DNA from: Quisquiliibacterium sp.
Lineage (GTDB): Bacteria > Pseudomonadota > Gammaproteobacteria > Burkholderiales > Burkholderiaceae_E
Length of the DNA stretch: 13,707 bases
Direction of reading: 5' to 3'
Assembly (NCBI GenBank): GCA_030830765.1
Contig: JAURMJ010000022.1
Span: forward strand, 1-13,707
Of the stretch, positions 4,874 through 11,471 are shown in pieces. Below the pieces are notes generated by a model that did no database searches, had not been told where the DNA came from, and worked only from the letters and a program-made list of their open reading frames with translations. Position 1 is the first letter of the stretch. Every line of letters begins with the position of its first letter. The translations under genes were made by a program, and so were the position numbers.

Positions 4874-5158
4874 ATGTCTGAGCCGGTAATTTATGTCCTG
4901 ACGGGGCGATTGGATGGCGGCAGCGCTGCCGGACATGAACAGGCGCTGGAGGCAGCGATCACCGATTCGCAACCGAATCTGGTCATTGACATGACTGGGC
5001 TCAATTACGTGAGCAGCGCTGGATTGCGCGTGTTGCTGGTCGCAGCCAAGCGTGCGCGCGGAAAGGGCGGTGATATCTCGCTGAAGCGTCCTTCCGCTGC
5101 GATCCGGGAAGTGCTTGAGATCAGCGGTTTCGACAAAATCCTGAAGATTGTCGACTGA
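4874..5158 (+). CDS. STAS-domain anti-sigma factor antagonist
   Basis: A 94-residue single STAS domain like SpoIIAA, RsbV and BtrV. The motif LVIDMTGLNYVSSAGLRVLL (37-56) is the diagnostic beta-strand and helix carrying the phosphorylated serine. Aligning on the following Gly-Leu with SpoIIAA points to S48, with S47 as the alternative. In this family the unphosphorylated form binds the partner kinase and releases that kinase's target, while a PP2C phosphatase restores it after phosphorylation. The ATG at 4874 has AGGGG at 4861-4865 at 8-base spacing; a GTG at 4865 overlaps that site and is less likely. The gene for its probable kinase follows after 88 bases, and a cognate-type phosphatase lies at the end of the same gene run. 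Confidence 0.9.
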   Translation: MSEPVIYVLTGRLDGGSAAGHEQALEAAITDSQPNLVIDMTGLNYVSSAGLRVLLVAAKRARGKGGDISLKRPSAAIREVLEISGFDKILKIVD

Positions 5159-5246
5159 AGGGTCCAGGATGCCGGCCGTTGCAACGGATCAGAGACGGGG
5201 GATGCGTTCCAAAGAGTATCCACCGGATCGTCTGGATTGAGATCGA

Positions 5247-5705
5247 ATGACGCCTTTGCCGCTCAACGATCCCGGTGCGCAGGTTTTGGAGCTGTCGGTC
5301 CATCTCCCGGAGGTGACCCGCGCAGTGGGCTGGCTTGAGTCGATTCTGGAAGCAGAAGGCCTTGATCCTGCGCGTATTTTTGGTTTCACGTTAAGCCTCG
5401 ACGAGGTTCTCACCAACATCATTGACTATGGTTTCCCGGCAACGGAACCTGACGCTCAACAAGCGGATGCAGCGCTGATTCGTCTTATTTTTCGACGCGA
5501 CGCTGAGAAATTGACCCTCGAGGTGCAGGACTGTGGCATCGCATTCGACCCCACCAATCAGCAGATTGAGGCGACAGTTTCCGATGTCGCGGAGGCACCC
5601 ATTGGGGGACACGGCCTCAGACTGATGCGGCACTACCTCGACTCGCTTGAGTATCAACGAAGGGATGGCTGGAATACGCTGCGCTTGACGATGCGCGCTG
5701 CGTAA
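5247..5705 (+). CDS. RsbW/SpoIIAB-like ATP-binding anti-sigma kinase
   Basis: A 152-residue GHKL ATPase domain of the HATPase_c_2 class. The N box SLDEVLTNIIDYG (50-62) has E53 as probable catalytic base and N57 as magnesium ligand. The G1 box VQDCGIAFDP (93-102) has D95 to contact adenine, and GGHGLRLM (120-127) is the G2 box. All key residues are intact, so it is expected to phosphorylate the STAS protein encoded upstream and to bind an unidentified target. The target need not be a sigma factor: BtrW-type relatives act on other regulators, and no sigma gene is visible here. The ribosome binding site before the ATG at 5247 is weak. Confidence 0.88.
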   Translation: MTPLPLNDPGAQVLELSVHLPEVTRAVGWLESILEAEGLDPARIFGFTLSLDEVLTNIIDYGFPATEPDAQQADAALIRLIFRRDAEKLTLEVQDCGIAFDPTNQQIEATVSDVAEAPIGGHGLRLMRHYLDSLEYQRRDGWNTLRLTMRAA

Positions 5706-5944
5706 TTCACGCCCGGTTATTTAGCCTTTGAGCGCCCGTGTCACGCTTGTTTGACCGGGTCGTTCCAGGATGGTCCAATGCATGCGGCGATGATCAAGCT
5801 GCGGTGACCGTAACTTGCGTGGTTAATGCCCATCAGCGGGTGTCCGACCAGTGATGGTTGTCATGCGGCCCAGGCATTTGGTCATTGCTCGCTGGCGGTA
5901 CGAGGATCACTGATCCGAGCAGGGAGTCGTGGAGGGCATGCCAG
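5706..5944 (+). other. Gap between the anti-sigma kinase and binding-protein genes
   Basis: This 239-base stretch separates the STAS/kinase pair from the four tightly packed downstream genes. The only structure I see is a loose inverted repeat, CCCGGT at 5712-5717 and ACCGGG at 5754-5759, with a 36-base loop. A separate promoter for the downstream genes could lie here but no clear -35/-10 pair is evident. Confidence 0.4.
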
Positions 5945-6985
5945 TTGAAGCGTCGTGAATTCATTCGGATTGGTCTGAGCGCCCCAGTCGTGTTGGGCGC
6001 AGGGCAGAGCCATGCTCAGCTGAGGTCGCCGATGAATAACCCTCGTATCCTCATCATCACCTATCGAGGGGCGACCGATGTTGAAAGAGGCTTCATAGCT
6101 CAGTTGAATGAAGCCGGGCTGCGACCGGAGTTGATGGTGCGGGACGTTCAGACTGATGTCACGAAAGTTCCCGCAATCCTGAAAGAGGCGCAGGCCTTCA
6201 GACCTGATCTGATCTTCACCTGGGGGACATCGGTTACCTTGGCGGTCACCGGAACCTACGATGCTCCCCGGCGGCACGCTTTGTCATCGGTCCCTGTGGT
6301 TTTTGCGCTGGTGTCAGCCCCGGTGGGGTCGAAAATCGTAGTGAGCAGGAGTGGGCAATCGCGCAGTATCACGGGCGCCGTGCATATCGTGCCCACCGAG
6401 ATACAGATGCGGACAATGCGGCTCTACAAGGATTTCGACAAGGTTGGCCTGTTGTACAACACGGCGGAGTCCAACTCCCGGATCATTGCCAGCGAGGTGC
6501 ATCGCTTTGCTTCGGCAAACGGCCTTGGGGTTGTCGAGCGCACGGTGCGCATGGATGCGAATGGGCGTCCTGTTGTCGACGGCATTGAAGATCTTGTGGC
6601 CCAGATTGCTGGTGAGGGCGCGCAATGGCTGTATCTGCCCCCCGATACTTTCGTAGGAAATGCGCTTCATCGGGTCGTTCCTGCTTCCCTGGAGCATCGC
6701 CTTCCCACCTTCGGCGCTGCCGAGCGCGCGGTCCGTCGAAGCGGTGCGCTCGCTGGTCTGATCAGCCGTTATTCCTCTGTTGGTCATCTGGCGGGCGCAA
6801 AAGCGCTCGAGATTCTTCGTGATGGCAGACCGGCGTCGGCTGTTCCGATCACCACGCTGAAGCGATTCTCATTGATCGTGAATATGCAGGTGGCCAAGGC
6901 GCTTGGTGGTTTTTACCCACCAATCGAGATGCTCAATTATGCCGAGGTGATTAATGTGCCCGTGCCGGGTGCTTCACGATCATGA
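5945..6985 (+). CDS. ABC_sub_bind periplasmic binding protein without transporter partners
   Basis: A 346-residue protein from the TTG at 5945, which has GGAGGG at 5931-5936 with 8-base spacing; a TTG at 5858 opens the frame earlier but would bury the signal peptide. The N-terminus KRREFIR with a hydrophobic stretch to SHA (22-24) is a Tat-type signal with probable cleavage after A24. The rest resembles the ABC_sub_bind family (PF04392, related to TrpX-like binding proteins). It has RILIITYRG (34-42), RPDLIFTWGTSV (86-97), VVFALVSAPVG (118-128) and VGLLYNTAESNS (167-178), and ends with YAEVINVPVP. No permease or ATPase gene is nearby. Its stop overlaps the GNAT start by ATGA, and membrane sensors follow, so a ligand-sensing role is more likely than transport. 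The ligand cannot be read from sequence. Confidence 0.82.
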   Translation: MKRREFIRIGLSAPVVLGAGQSHAQLRSPMNNPRILIITYRGATDVERGFIAQLNEAGLRPELMVRDVQTDVTKVPAILKEAQAFRPDLIFTWGTSVTLAVTGTYDAPRRHALSSVPVVFALVSAPVGSKIVVSRSGQSRSITGAVHIVPTEIQMRTMRLYKDFDKVGLLYNTAESNSRIIASEVHRFASANGLGVVERTVRMDANGRPVVDGIEDLVAQIAGEGAQWLYLPPDTFVGNALHRVVPASLEHRLPTFGAAERAVRRSGALAGLISRYSSVGHLAGAKALEILRDGRPASAVPITTLKRFSLIVNMQVAKALGGFYPPIEMLNYAEVINVPVPGASRS

Positions 6986-7710
6986 GCGAGTCCCCCGTTA
7001 TTGACTTGCCCGCCGGATTGCAGCTACGCATGCTTCAGGATGGCGATATCGATTCAATAGATTCGCTTCATCGTCTGGTGACTCGATCACTGGATGAGTC
7101 CGTCGTGAGACCCGTATCCAAAGACTATTTTGCACGGATACTCCAGGACAATGGCGCGATCGCAGGACTCGAAGCCGACGGTTTGCTCGTCGCTTATGGT
7201 GCCCTGCAGTGCAAGCTCGATGAATACGACGGGGCCAGCTTCCTGGAGGGTCGGACGCAGCCTGGTTTGCAGCTGTACAAACTTGCTGGATCCTCGGTGC
7301 ACCCTGACTGGCGTGGCATGCGACTGCAGCGCCGTCTGATCGACTTTCGGTGTAGGTTGGCGATTGGCGTGCAGGGAGTCTTTGCCACCGTTTCACCGGA
7401 CAATCCGGCCAGTCTGAGCAACTTCCTGGGATGCGGGTTTCAGGTCGAGGCGCTCAGGCGAGTCTATTCGGGGGTTATGCGTTTCGTCCTGTTCAAGTCA
7501 TTGCCGGCAGAAGCACTGCCCGTCCCTGAGCAGGGCGAATGCAGAATGGTCCCGCTCAACAAGATCGACGAACATGTACACCTGCTTGCCTCGGGCTGGA
7601 TCGGCGATGCGCTCGGTCAGGGTGGTCGCATGCTGCGCTACCGGGTTGCCCCTGGCCAGGTGCAGAGCATGGGTCGCGGCAATTCGTGTCGACGCAGCGA
7701 CCTGTCTTGA
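6982..7710 (+). CDS. GNAT-like acetyltransferase, probably frameshifted near its 3' end
   Basis: As written it encodes 242 residues, starting at an ATG that overlaps the upstream stop (ATGA). SSVHPDWRGMRLQRRLIDF (104-122) is the acetyl-CoA-binding motif A (RGxxLxxxL), and SPDNPASLSNFLGCGF (138-153) fits motif B, both standard for GNAT. Substrate unknown. The last residues, GRGNSCRRSDLS, look unnatural. The +1 frame continues with VAAIRVDAATCLECQVNV and runs to a TGA at 7769-7771 that overlaps the ATG of the next gene, matching the other junctions in the cluster. One surplus base, for example in GGG at 7671-7673, would explain this and give a 262-residue product. It sits between a binding protein and a sensor, so it may modify a component of this signalling set. 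Confidence 0.75.
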   Translation: MSESPVIDLPAGLQLRMLQDGDIDSIDSLHRLVTRSLDESVVRPVSKDYFARILQDNGAIAGLEADGLLVAYGALQCKLDEYDGASFLEGRTQPGLQLYKLAGSSVHPDWRGMRLQRRLIDFRCRLAIGVQGVFATVSPDNPASLSNFLGCGFQVEALRRVYSGVMRFVLFKSLPAEALPVPEQGECRMVPLNKIDEHVHLLASGWIGDALGQGGRMLRYRVAPGQVQSMGRGNSCRRSDLS

Positions 7711-7767
7711 GTGCCAAGTCAATGTGAGGTCTTTACACGCTGTGCAAGTGGTTCAGAAAACACAATC

Positions 7768-8538
7768 ATGAACTCCGCTCACCGACCCTTGACCTGGTGG
7801 TTTGCACCGTATCTTGCAGGCACCCTGACGGTGCTTTTGCTGCTGGTGATCGGGTTCGGGCATGGTCGGGTGGTTGACCAGCTTGAGCTGAGGCAACACG
7901 ACCGATTCCGCTTCCATCTGGCGCAGGTCAAGGCCGAAATCGAGACTGGTCTGCGGCTGGGTTTCCCGCTGACCCAGTTTCCAGACGTCCAATCGCTGCT
8001 CAACCGGGCAGAGGATCTCGATGCGGACATTTTCTCGGTTGATCTTTTTGACCGTCATGGGGTCATTGTGTCGACTTCGGATGAAGGAAGTCTTGCAGGG
8101 CGACTTCCGGCACCGCTCAGTGCCGATTGCCAGCAGTCTGATCCCGGGCTGCGGATTGGCCGTGAGGACAACAGTGGCTGGCAGTGCGTCCCAGTCACTG
8201 ACGCGATTGATCAGGGGGTCGGCGGTTTGCTGCTGCGCTACCGAATGACCATGCGCGAGGGCTTGGTTGAAACTGTGGCTGGGCAATGGCCGATGCTTCT
8301 GGGCATTTTGTTGACGTTTTCTTTGCTGGGTTCGTTGGCGAGCTGGTTGTGGCTGCGTCCTCTGGAGAGGCCCTATCTGCGTGTTCTGCGTGACCTTGAT
8401 TCCGGAGAGGCAGGCCGTGGCCGCGAGCTGCCAGAGCCGATTGCGATGTCGGTTGAAAAGCTTGACCAGTTCGAGGCGAGCATCCGGGTCATCGAGAAGC
8501 GAGTCGATGAAATCGATCAACTGGATGCCAGCGCATGA
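7768..8538 (+). CDS. Membrane sensor with HAMP-like linker and no output domain
   Basis: A 256-residue protein. A transmembrane helix (about 12-30) is followed by an extracytoplasmic region (about 31-172), a second helix (about 175-196) and a HAMP-like, then coiled-coil, C-terminus (about 197-252) with no kinase, cyclase or phosphatase domain. Residues 58-104 (IETGLRLGFPLTQF..., then SVDLFDRHGVIVSTS) resemble residues 60-106 of the phosphatase encoded next, so the two sensors are related. The ATG at 7768 is preferred; the GTG at 7711 would add 19 residues with poor coding character. Its stop overlaps the phosphatase start (ATGATG at 8535), suggesting the two proteins are made together and perhaps form a complex. 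Confidence 0.72.
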   Translation: MNSAHRPLTWWFAPYLAGTLTVLLLLVIGFGHGRVVDQLELRQHDRFRFHLAQVKAEIETGLRLGFPLTQFPDVQSLLNRAEDLDADIFSVDLFDRHGVIVSTSDEGSLAGRLPAPLSADCQQSDPGLRIGREDNSGWQCVPVTDAIDQGVGGLLLRYRMTMREGLVETVAGQWPMLLGILLTFSLLGSLASWLWLRPLERPYLRVLRDLDSGEAGRGRELPEPIAMSVEKLDQFEASIRVIEKRVDEIDQLDASA

Positions 8539-11471
8539 TGTTTGAGGATCTGGGTCAACGGCTTTGGCGGCGTTGGACGATCATCCTGCTGGTCTCCTGC
8601 CTGGCATCGGTCTTCGCAGCAGCCTGGTTTGCCGAACAGATTGTCAGGCAGTCCGGCCGGGAGGAGCTTGCCAAGACCGTGGCAGTCGTTGGCAATCAGA
8701 TTGCAGCCGATCTCGAACGGGCGATCGGGTTCGGAATTCCTGTTGCGCAACTGCGCGAAGTCGACAGCTGGTTCAGAAACATAGTGAATGGCAATGCCAT
8801 TCTTGAAAGCATTACATTGACTGATGAGCGCGGAAAACTGTTGGCCAGTCATCATCGGCAATCAGGTTCGGAGCGATCGCCGCAGTCAGTCAGTGATGAC
8901 AAAAGCGCTTCGCGACAGATGCCGATGTTCATCAAGCGACTCAAGCTTGCTGATCAAAAAGATGTCGGAGTGTTGCGAGTGGTCGCGGCTGCACCGGCGG
9001 TGGATTTCGTCGGTTATGCCCTCTGGGTTCTTGCCGGACTTGCCTCAGCAGCGTGTGCAGCGTTGGGGCTGCGCTATCTGGTCCGTACGCGGATCGCGAT
9101 GCCCCTGAGCGATTTGCGCAAGGCCTGTGAAATGCTTGGTCGCTCAACGCTGATGTCACCCAGAGCCCGATCGACAGGGCAGGTGGTCGATCGATTGAGC
9201 GCTGTCATTGCCGGGCGTATCGATAGGGTCACTGAGCGCAGGCGGCAGGCTCTCACCCGCGTCGCAGAGGTCAGGGCAGCGCATTTTGCACCGGGACCAC
9301 TCGCAGAAATCGATGCGCTGCAGGGCCGTTTGCTTGAGTGGAGCGAACTGTCTGCGCAACCGGCTCCGGCAGCGCATTTGGACCCAGCGCGGACATGGAC
9401 CTTGCCACGTCAATTGCGTGCCCTCGTGACAGCTGCGCTCTTGGCTTTCACCGGCTCTGGGCTTCTGGTGGCCCACAGTTTGGGGTTGGTCGCTGAGCAG
9501 GAGCTGATTCGCGAAACAGCGCGCGGACTGAAATATGTATGGCAGGCGGATCTGGGCTTCCAGCTCCCAGGGCTGCTGCGCAAAATGAACATGGTTCGCA
9601 CGCAGAGCGGTGTTGAAGAGACATTGCAGCGGGGCGATTTTGAACGACTGCCTCGCTTGCTGCAGTCCGCAGCCAGCGACGGCGAGTTAATCGCTATTTT
9701 CACTGAACGAGGCTCGCTGATTGCGAGCAATTTCGATCGCAGGAGCAACGCGGGAGTCCGGGAGGCGGAGACGCTCAAAAGACTGGCTGACAATGCAATC
9801 CCGGGGTTTTGGCAAGGGGCAGACCTTAGATTTCTGACCGGTATTGTGGATCGGATGGTCTCTTCGCAAGGTGCGCGCTATCTCGTGGTGATTGCTCATG
9901 CAGCAGACCAGCGATTAGCGCCTGTTCAGACCAAGCTGGGTGTGCGCGTCGCGCTGGCTGACTTACGCGGTCAATCTGTCGGGGACGACGAAGCAGGGTT
10001 GACCCGGCGCTGGCGATCAAATGAGCGGCAGCCTTTCGGGTACCGTGAAGGGAACCAGTCCTTTCTGCTCAACCAGATCCCACTGACGGATCCTTTTGGG
10101 CGCGAAATAGGAACCTTGCTGGCGCGTTTTGATCTCGAGAAGAGTCTGGGTGTCCATGAATGGATCGAGATCCTCTGCGCTCTGGCGCTCGCCGGTTTGG
10201 GCATTGCGTTGTTGTTCCGTTGGGGGGTTGGCGCAGTCGATGCACTAGAGACTCCTGTGTCGCGATTGCAGCGCCTGGCTAAAGCGGGCGACGGCGACAA
10301 GTCATCGGAGCCCGCACCATTGAGTGCACAAGCGGTGTCGTCGACGGTTGAGCGTATTGAATCGATCATGTCCAACTTCGAATTGATGCGCAGGTCTCGT
10401 GACCGCCAGGGCTATCGGCAAAGCCGTTTCATGCGTCATCAGATCAAATCACTCGCTGATCGACTCGCTCCGGATGCGAGCAAGGCGCTGCTCGAAGATC
10501 TCGCCCGGATCGAGTCAACAACGGATGGCGACGCGATGGCTATACCGGGGCGCGCTGATGCAAGTTCTGTTGCAGCAAGCCGGTCTGCACAGGAGGATGA
10601 AATTGGCGTGCTAGCGGTCGGCTTTCAGACCCTGATGGCCCGGGTCGGCGATCAATATGAAGAACTCAATCGCTTGGTGGACGAGTTGCGTGAGGCATTA
10701 CGAGTCAAGACGCAATTTGTTGCGATCCAGCGAGAGTTGGAAATTGCAAGCAAGATGCAATTGGCGATTCTGCCAAGACCTTTTGAGAGTGTGGGCGGCT
10801 TGCGGATCGAGGCGACGATGCAGGCCGCCACGGATATCGGTGGCGACTTCTATGATTTCTTCAAGCTGGACGAGAATCGGGTCGCGTTGGCGATCGCGGA
10901 TGTATCGGGCAAGGGCATTCCAGCCGCCCTGTTCATGGCCGTTTCGCGCACATTGCTTCGTGCGGTTGCCCAGTTCAGCCAAACCCCTGGGGATTGTCTG
11001 GTCAGGCTGAACAATCTCTTGGCTGAAGAAAACGAACGCATGATGTTCGTCACGCTGTTCTATGCGGTTCTTGATTTAAATACCGGACAGTTGAGTTTTG
11101 CCAATGCGGGTCACAATCCACCGCTTCTTTTGCGTGCCAACGGTGAGATTGAGGAAATTGGCCGGGCTGGTGGTACTGCACTTGCCGTCATGGAGGGCCT
11201 GCCGTACACAAACCAGAGCATCCAGGTGAACCGTGGCGACCGACTGTTCCTGTACACCGATGGCGTGACGGAAGCCTTTGATCCGGACCGGAATATGTTC
11301 GGTGTCGAGCGTTTGTACAGCCTGCTGGAGCAGTTGCGGACCATGCCGCTGCAGGAGGTGCCCGCGCAGGTTCTGGCGCAGGTCATTGCGTTTGAGCGAG
11401 GTGGGGAACAAACCGATGACATCACCTGTCTCGTGGCCTCGTTTGATCCCCCGGATTCCCGCGAATCGTAA
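8535..11471 (+). CDS. Multi-sensor SpoIIE-type PP2C serine phosphatase
   Basis: A 978-residue inner-membrane protein. It has a helix at about 15-35, an extracytoplasmic sensor (36-156), a helix at 157-181 and a HAMP-like cytoplasmic segment (182-290). A third helix (293-317), a larger second extracytoplasmic domain (318-544), a fourth helix (545-563) and HAMP-like/coiled-coil linkers (about 570-735) follow. The C-terminal PP2C domain covers about 737-970. Metal-binding motifs are intact: DIGGDFYD (767-774), IADVSGKG (787-794), LYTDGVTEA (906-914) and TDDIT (960-964). ANAGHNPP (856-863) is typical of RsbU/SpoIIE. Known relatives dephosphorylate STAS antagonists, so the STAS protein at 4874 is the likely substrate. 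The start overlaps the sensor gene by ATGA. Confidence 0.9.
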   Translation: MMFEDLGQRLWRRWTIILLVSCLASVFAAAWFAEQIVRQSGREELAKTVAVVGNQIAADLERAIGFGIPVAQLREVDSWFRNIVNGNAILESITLTDERGKLLASHHRQSGSERSPQSVSDDKSASRQMPMFIKRLKLADQKDVGVLRVVAAAPAVDFVGYALWVLAGLASAACAALGLRYLVRTRIAMPLSDLRKACEMLGRSTLMSPRARSTGQVVDRLSAVIAGRIDRVTERRRQALTRVAEVRAAHFAPGPLAEIDALQGRLLEWSELSAQPAPAAHLDPARTWTLPRQLRALVTAALLAFTGSGLLVAHSLGLVAEQELIRETARGLKYVWQADLGFQLPGLLRKMNMVRTQSGVEETLQRGDFERLPRLLQSAASDGELIAIFTERGSLIASNFDRRSNAGVREAETLKRLADNAIPGFWQGADLRFLTGIVDRMVSSQGARYLVVIAHAADQRLAPVQTKLGVRVALADLRGQSVGDDEAGLTRRWRSNERQPFGYREGNQSFLLNQIPLTDPFGREIGTLLARFDLEKSLGVHEWIEILCALALAGLGIALLFRWGVGAVDALETPVSRLQRLAKAGDGDKSSEPAPLSAQAVSSTVERIESIMSNFELMRRSRDRQGYRQSRFMRHQIKSLADRLAPDASKALLEDLARIESTTDGDAMAIPGRADASSVAASRSAQEDEIGVLAVGFQTLMARVGDQYEELNRLVDELREALRVKTQFVAIQRELEIASKMQLAILPRPFESVGGLRIEATMQAATDIGGDFYDFFKLDENRVALAIADVSGKGIPAALFMAVSRTLLRAVAQFSQTPGDCLVRLNNLLAEENERMMFVTLFYAVLDLNTGQLSFANAGHNPPLLLRANGEIEEIGRAGGTALAVMEGLPYTNQSIQVNRGDRLFLYTDGVTEAFDPDRNMFGVERLYSLLEQLRTMPLQEVPAQVLAQVIAFERGGEQTDDITCLVASFDPPDSRES

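Follow-up and report, generated by a model that had tools for sequence, protein, structure and literature searches.

The Rsb system (RsbU/V/W) and Chlamydia RsbU follow a PP2C/kinase/STAS logic; Chlamydia RsbU reportedly has a periplasmic sensor domain, as a paper title puts it, and no binding protein is known in either. Pseudomonas SiaABCD uses a membrane SpoIIE phosphatase that acts with a STAS protein and a kinase. Few of the signals sensed by proteobacterial partner-switch phosphatases are known. The Bordetella btr locus, a regulator of type III secretion comprising BtrV, BtrW, alr, BtrO, BtrU, BtrN, BtrM, BtrA and BtrS, is tabulated as containing a STAS protein, a kinase, alr, an MFS protein (BtrO), a SpoIIE phosphatase and an "ABC transporter" (BtrN), and in that table the function of BtrN, BtrO and alr is given as unknown (PMC7498569).

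The DNA analyzed here (the window, 13,707 nt) is one entire contig of a Quisquiliibacterium sp. assembly that is 72% complete and consists of 441 contigs. The gene identities read from it in an earlier note, all on the plus strand, were confirmed (PBP denotes the PF04392 periplasmic binding protein throughout, not a penicillin-binding protein):

4874..5158, plus strand: STAS protein (RsbV/SpoIIAA/BtrV-like; Pfam STAS 1.5e-16, STAS_2 4.2e-16)
5247..5705, plus strand: HATPase_c_2 serine kinase of the anti-sigma type (RsbW/BtrW-like; Pfam HATPase_c_2 1.8e-19)
5945..6985, plus strand: PBP, PF04392, TrpX-like, TTG start (Pfam 2.8e-22; twin-arginine signal MKRREFIRIGLS)
6982..7710, plus strand: GNAT-like protein, overlapping the PBP gene by 4 nt (Acetyltransf_1 17.6 bits)
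7768..8538, plus strand: membrane sensor (TM helix at ~12-30, single-Cache domain, TM helix at ~176-194, C-terminal helix)
8535..11471, plus strand: PP2C/SpoIIE phosphatase of 978 aa, overlapping the sensor gene by 4 nt (Pfam SpoIIE 2.3e-55)

The Pfam cut-offs were exceeded for STAS, HATPase_c_2, ABC_sub_bind and SpoIIE, whereas the GNAT-like protein fell below that of Acetyltransf_1 (17.6 versus 20.7 bits), which was passed by one of eight GNAT-like homologues tested (L139, 24.7 bits). The earlier description of overlaps joining the last four genes holds for the PBP/GNAT and sensor/PP2C junctions but not for GNAT/sensor, since the likely sensor start, ATG 7768, lies 57 nt past the GNAT stop; an alternative start, GTG 7711, would abut the GNAT gene. 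Gaps of 88 nt and 239 nt separate STAS from kinase and kinase from PBP, respectively, so that the genes may belong to more than one transcript; GTG 4865 is an alternative STAS start. As had also been noted, no permease or ATPase gene lies beside the PBP gene: no ABC permease or ATPase was found among the ten window proteins scanned. One PF04392 copy is present in the genome as assembled (72% complete).

Judged by sequence, the parts of a partner switch are all present: the PP2C metal aspartates, the kinase N, G1 and G2 boxes and the STAS serine. The STAS protein matches 4qtp, 1sbo and SpoIIAA entries in the PDB and contains the motif DMTGLNYVSSAGL; from its alignment to 1sbo and from what is known of the family, S51 (numbered from GTG 4865) is likely the phospho-serine. 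The kinase, for which no PDB sequence match was found at 1e-3, contains DEVLTNIIDYGF, DCGIAF and GGHGLRLM, which we take to be the N, G1 and G2 boxes, respectively. In the phosphatase, whose metal-binding aspartates are intact by motif check and whose PP2C fold resembles those of RsbU and SiaA (6k4e), an N-terminal sCache-like sensor is followed by a second, larger extracytoplasmic domain, a helical linker and the PP2C domain (~746-973). The second domain (~292-535) appears dCache-like, a label taken from predicted strand order because structure matches of the PP2C model were to PP2C domains only. The separate sensor has a single-Cache (sCache) fold between two TM helices, and many of the Cache structures that it matched carry small ligands; a phmmer search with this sensor returned one match, 98% identical, among 4070 candidates. 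Of the PP2C homologues in 101 relatives, the two closest (G049 and G004, E 1e-100 or better) share a block with the two best PBP homologues.

The TTG start of the PBP gene is supported by the twin-arginine signal that follows it, and the RR motif is kept in all 15 members of the clade described below. Profile matches of the PBP included 6hni, 3lkv and 3lft, a profile search gathered 303 clusters of homologues, and the score against the TrpX equivalog, 89.1 bits, was far short of the cut-off of 390.

The earlier note had proposed a search for this neighbourhood across proteobacteria. Among 58 named loci collected by PBP alone, with genes counted within the fetched stretch, the same sensor domain is encoded in 49, a fusion of this sensor to an MFS transporter (sensor-MFS) stands immediately upstream of the PBP gene in 48, and a GNAT homologue is present in 32. 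A PP2C is present in 21 loci (with a kinase in 19) and an alanine racemase in 12; SpoIIE PP2C is missing from the fetched stretch in the other 37. The neighbourhood is thus conserved, and the gene association is beyond chance. The window PBP belongs to a supported clade whose 15 members come from alpha- and betaproteobacteria. A PP2C lies in the locus of 14 of them; in the remaining member, from Xanthobacter, the PP2C, kinase, STAS, sensors and sensor-MFS are encoded elsewhere in the genome, so that the module is split. Gene order varies between lineages and most of the content is kept, with no STAS gene seen in the stretches fetched for the three Castellaniella loci. In Comamonas testosteroni, PBP, GNAT, two sensors, PP2C, kinase and STAS stay together, and the genome gave only weak matches to a sensor-MFS query (best E 4e-8), a set that fits PBP input to the sensors. 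When 60 sequences were roughly scanned by motif, ABC-ATPase-like frames were seen only outside the module, 2.5-9 kb from the PBP gene (L083, L088, L090 and L108). These locus and clade counts indicate that the usual partners of the PBP are Cache sensors joined to MFS or PP2C, and not ABC subunits.

The reading that we favor, at about even confidence, is a Btr-like partner switch in which the PBP provides input via Cache sensors to the PP2C. The PBP, exported by the Tat route, would bind a small ligand in the periplasm and, in either its loaded or its empty state, would dock on the bare sensor and on the PP2C via the Cache domains of both, thereby altering PP2C activity. The PP2C would dephosphorylate the STAS serine and the kinase rephosphorylate it, as suggested by the intact motifs and by knowledge of the family, from which we would also expect unphosphorylated STAS to bind the kinase and so free or block the kinase target. 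The path from PBP to sensor to phosphatase was the core of the earlier proposal and gives the best fit. It is supported by the joint inheritance of the PBP with extracytoplasmic Cache sensors and, within one clade that spans alpha- and betaproteobacteria, with the SpoIIE/HATPase switch. In most loci, however, a sensor-MFS fusion adjoins the PBP gene, so that the primary partner of the PBP may be a transporter. Neighbouring genes for a binding protein and a sensor can also mislead: in Pseudomonas, three binding proteins whose genes lie close to those of two sensor kinases reportedly showed, when tested, no sign of acting on the kinases (PMC11113362).

It is doubtful, though arguable, that the PBP instead feeds the sensor-MFS in binding-protein-dependent MFS transport, with the MFS Cache domain as the docking site, the PP2C reading transport, and the window MFS lost or on a missing contig. 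The position of the fusion directly upstream of the PBP gene argues for this, as do the two sensor-MFS matches in a sample of 274 genomes, which both end close to a PBP match (161 and 83 nt; genomes were drawn by class and the best three candidates per genome scored, so that a sensor-MFS could be missed), and the overlapping ATGA junctions of MFS with PBP and of PBP with GNAT in Castellaniella L084. Comamonas, however, keeps the PBP with the PP2C where a clear sensor-MFS is lacking, the MFS domain scores best to efflux families of NCBIfam (all far below their cut-offs), and a transport review, in the part consulted, names ABC and TRAP as binding-protein systems and has TTT among its references. 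An MFS protein with its own extracytoplasmic sensor and an adjoining binding protein would be unusual in itself.

That the PP2C and sensors bind the ligand directly, as the Chlamydia RsbU title might suggest, and that the PBP is an operon hitch-hiker, we consider unlikely. The Cache domains could themselves bind ligand, given the small ligands in many matched structures, and a PP2C, kinase and STAS occur at L072, and a PP2C and STAS at L070, with no PBP nearby, so that the PBP is not essential to this type of switch; against this, the PBP stays with the PP2C in two classes despite rearrangement and the splitting of the module in one genome. Similarly improbable is that one Tat-exported PBP serves Cache receptors with two outputs, an MFS "transceptor" and a PP2C switch setting secretion activity, the window having shed the transporter while retaining its phosphatase arm; if true, this would account for the unassigned btr genes BtrN, BtrO and alr. 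An ordinary ABC-importer PBP with permease and ATPase encoded elsewhere is very improbable, since PF04392 membership, TrpX similarity and the incompleteness of the genome are outweighed by the low TrpX equivalog score, the lack of ABC-ATPase-like frames within the module in the motif scan and the steady company of sensors, MFS and PP2C. A search for PF06541 permeases (0 of 36 genomes) has no bearing here, as TrpY-type permeases presumably belong to another family, PF02653.

Under the favored PBP-to-PP2C reading, the best candidate targets would be secretion systems, in some relatives. Type III genes (SctR, SctT, SctU and a secretin) accompany the PBP-less switch at L072, and a secretin gene accompanies L070. 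T6SS genes lie inside 10 of the 58 PBP loci, eight of them from one Massilia/Pseudoduganella/Rugamonas group (three with TagF only) and the others being L130 (Herbaspirillum, same family, separate PBP clade) and L114; L116 (27%) and L066 (24%, outside the 58), with weak secretin matches only, were left out of this count. Of the 49 module genomes searched for TssB, 26 contain it. Because a T6SS is missing from the vicinity of many full modules, and no TssB was found in the window's incomplete genome, T6SS was rejected as a general output and its link appears lineage-specific. A peptidoglycan or D-amino-acid theme is no more than an idea, the racemase being present in so few loci; by alignment the racemase retains a Lys and a Tyr that we take to be catalytic, and a penicillin-binding protein gene adjoins the Duganella PBP gene. 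A PBP that co-travels with the Cache sensors of a phosphatase offers a handle on the ligand, as it can be purified and screened, and if the Btr link is true the btr locus, too, may respond to this class of ligand.

Among known systems, the TrpXYZ ABC importers share the PF04392 family with the window (3lft, 3lkv, 6hni) but include a permease and an ATPase, neither of which was found in the module. Binding protein-sensor pairs such as LuxP-LuxQ and TorT-TorS, a class also treated in PMC11113362, likewise combine a membrane sensor with a periplasmic binding protein, with a histidine kinase as output where the window has a PP2C phosphatase. Pseudomonas SiaA shares the PP2C fold match 6k4e; the window PP2C nevertheless scored 63.6 bits against the SiaA equivalog (cut-off 700), and no diguanylate cyclase was found among the ten window proteins scanned. 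The Rsb and Chlamydia RsbU logic is shared, with no sigma B partner seen in the window.

In the literature searched, of which the results were partly sampled, a PP2C switch accompanied by a binding protein is described only in the btr table, which weakens the earlier statement that the combination is undescribed (PMC7498569). The btr-like set of STAS, kinase, PP2C, racemase, MFS and PBP occurs at L077, L078, L079, L083, L085, L088, L089 and L090, a likeness of parts lists in which BtrN and BtrO are compared by tabulated description and not by sequence. No recognizable Bordetella locus for BtrN was found among 121 relatives of Castellaniella, and no Bordetella name appears among the 120 listed of 269 homologues. 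Compared with btr, the window contig has no alr, no MFS and no type III match (tblastn with four type III proteins against 13.7 kb), and no sigma factor among the ten proteins scanned; in G000, MFS matches were weak (E 1e-4 at best), and a racemase match of 26% lies on a different contig. Since the contig is without sensor-MFS and alanine racemase, the window is best described, with moderate confidence, as a reduced Btr-like switch, a variant of the known partner-switch kind.

The window is the entire contig G000:C110 of a 2.63 Mb assembly (72% complete, 441 contigs) and carries six genes on its plus strand, encoding a STAS protein, a HATPase_c_2 kinase, a periplasmic binding protein of family PF04392 (PBP), a GNAT-like protein, a sensor with two TM segments and a PP2C phosphatase of 978 aa. 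Features used below are:

5945..6985, plus strand: PBP
5945-6020, plus strand: twin-arginine signal of the PBP
8535..11471, plus strand: SpoIIE-type PP2C phosphatase
flanking genes, minus strand: glutamate-synthase-like, DUF5666, DUF6502 and alpha/beta hydrolase

The flanking genes look unrelated to the cluster, and neither a sigma factor nor a cyclase was present among the ten window proteins scanned. Four of the six cluster genes pass Pfam cut-offs; no Pfam family was found for the sensor at 1e-3, and the GNAT-like protein falls below the cut-off, with its homologue in locus L139 above it. The last four genes had been described in the earlier note as overlapping, which is true of the PBP/GNAT and sensor/PP2C junctions (4 nt each) but probably not of GNAT/sensor, where the likely sensor start is ATG 7768. 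STAS and kinase are separated by 88 nt, and kinase and PBP by 239 nt.

Among 101 relatives, the only PP2C homologues at E <=1e-100 (genomes G049 and G004) share their block with the two best PBP homologues, and the G055 block from this search holds a PP2C end fragment, an MFS transporter and a PBP. In G049 the genes run from the sensor-MFS fusion through PBP, GNAT, alanine racemase, sensor and PP2C to an opposite-strand kinase and then STAS. A scan of named genomes with a PBP alignment yielded 58 PBP loci, three of which coincide with the G049, G004 and G055 places and were counted once. Gene content, scored by profile HMMs built for this analysis, included the sensor in 49 loci, an MFS in 49 (in 48 immediately preceding the PBP in the same orientation), GNAT in 32 (matching between MFS and PBP in L124), alanine racemase in 12, a Na/Pi transporter in seven and GPP34 in two. 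PP2C was present in 21, with the kinase in 19 and with kinase and STAS in 15.

The nine loci lacking an MFS are L086, L087, L115, L117-L120, L123 and L127, the last a 4-kb contig. In L117 (7479-11658), L118, L119, L120 and L123, where the vicinity holds no sensor-MFS, the PBP gene directly precedes a PP2C_2-type gene; in L117 the PBP gene itself comes after a frame of the class-A penicillin-binding protein cluster, the called frames overlapping by 4 nt. Where SpoIIE PP2C is absent, a Ser/Thr kinase lies near the module in L065, L093-L100, L103, L106, L107 and L113 (dCache plus HAMP by Pfam in the L094 copy, other copies by tblastn), accompanied by a PP2C_2-type phosphatase except in L065, L093 and L096. 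A Na/Pi cotransporter gene lies within or beside the module in L077 (the L062 place), L078, L080, L083, L085, L089 and L124, and between kinase and STAS in L083, L085 and L089. Genes for a class-III aminotransferase, a PLP-dependent enzyme and a GlcNAc-epimerase-like protein directly follow PP2C in L101 (13556-18132).

Of 274 genomes drawn by class, three contain PBPs of the window's subfamily (E <=1e-88), the window's genome among them; sensor-MFS, scored on the best three MFS candidates per genome, was found in two, its matches ending 161 and 83 nt from a PBP match. Eight further, weaker PBP matches (5e-34 to 5e-21) in this sample fall in genomes without a sensor-MFS match. Of the 121 Castellaniella relatives, a PBP at E <=1e-20 is present in 65 but the subfamily in only five; in one of these (G457), the 20 kb fetched contained only sensor, sensor-MFS and PBP.

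On the PBP tree, the window groups with L077-L080 in a starred five-row set (96/90) within a starred 15-row clade (100/99) spanning Comamonadaceae, Alcaligenaceae, unplaced Burkholderiales, Xanthobacteraceae, Paracoccaceae and Roseobacteraceae. The PP2C label requires six changes on this tree, whereas shuffled labels average 18; PP2C-linked PBPs outside the clade are L125, L128 and L129 with L114, L130 with L133, L101, and L124. PP2C is in the locus for 14 of the 15 members, the exception being Xanthobacter tagetidis, where sensor-MFS, sensors, PP2C, kinase and STAS occupy another genome stretch; L140 (Xanthobacter, 7396-16202) holds these genes away from its PBP-GNAT-racemase block. In L083, L085, L089, L088 and L090 (hosts Azorhizobium, Aquabacter, Pseudogemmobacter and Rubellimicrobium), the PP2C and sensor genes are transcribed divergently from the MFS-PBP-GNAT-racemase-kinase-STAS arm. 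The L080, L087 and window loci have no racemase, and the stretch fetched for each of the three Castellaniella rows yielded no STAS. Because content is kept through rearrangement and splitting, these arrangements argue for a module that works as a unit. An RR pair (e.g., KRREFI, DRRLFI) is present at the PBP N terminus in all 15 clade members, which the tally covered. This motif, which we take to be a Tat signal, suggests Tat export of the clade PBPs; to our knowledge, such a signal is unusual for PF04392 binding proteins.

Relative to loci with sensor-MFS and racemase, the window is a reduced form of the module. Neither sensor-MFS nor a module-type racemase was found in its genome, of which about 28% may be missing. 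The draft genome of Comamonas testosteroni, a named isolate, carries this reduced set too, with no match to the sensor-MFS query better than 4e-8; the PBP with the PP2C arm can therefore occur in the absence of the MFS.

The partners that steadily accompany the PBP are Cache sensors, joined to either MFS or PP2C. From the observed gene content, motifs, predicted folds and conservation, the simplest reading is that the PBP signals to Cache sensors, which would set PP2C and then STAS and kinase; its putative steps are ligand binding by the PBP, docking, PP2C control and the target. The excerpt of PMC11113362 describes binding proteins acting through membrane sensors for histidine kinases, and cautions that adjacent genes need not be linked, the three binding proteins tested there giving no sign of kinase activation.

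Type VI secretion (T6SS) genes lie within 10 of the 58 PBP loci (L114 and nine from Oxalobacteraceae, the latter split between two PBP clades) and beside the module in the Vibrio plasmid copy L138. In some lineages the output may reasonably be guessed to be secretion control, a guess that does not extend to the window. TssA/B/C/M or TagF occur in the stretch fetched around the sensor-MFS/PBP module in L094, L098, L099, L100, L103, L106, L107, L113, L114, L130 and L138, and T6SS-associated modules belong to separate lineages, the Vibrio plasmid included. In L072 (2732-13803), a PP2C/kinase/STAS set that lacks a PBP has type III genes (SctR, SctT, SctU and secretin) beside it, and in L070 (88-8020) a secretin lies beside PP2C and STAS.

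Judged by the parts list tabulated in the excerpt of PMC7498569, the Bordetella btr locus is the closest known system. Listed there are BtrV (STAS), BtrW (kinase), alr, BtrO (MFS), BtrU (SpoIIE phosphatase), BtrN ("ABC transporter"), BtrM ("gamma-glutamylcysteine synthetase"), BtrA and BtrS, with the function of alr, BtrO, BtrN and BtrM entered as "unknown". This list is close to that of the module, a likeness at the level of the table's annotations, which makes BtrN and BtrO putative homologues at most; btr has alr and an MFS, whereas the window has neither. We therefore call the window Btr-like rather than file it as a btr locus.
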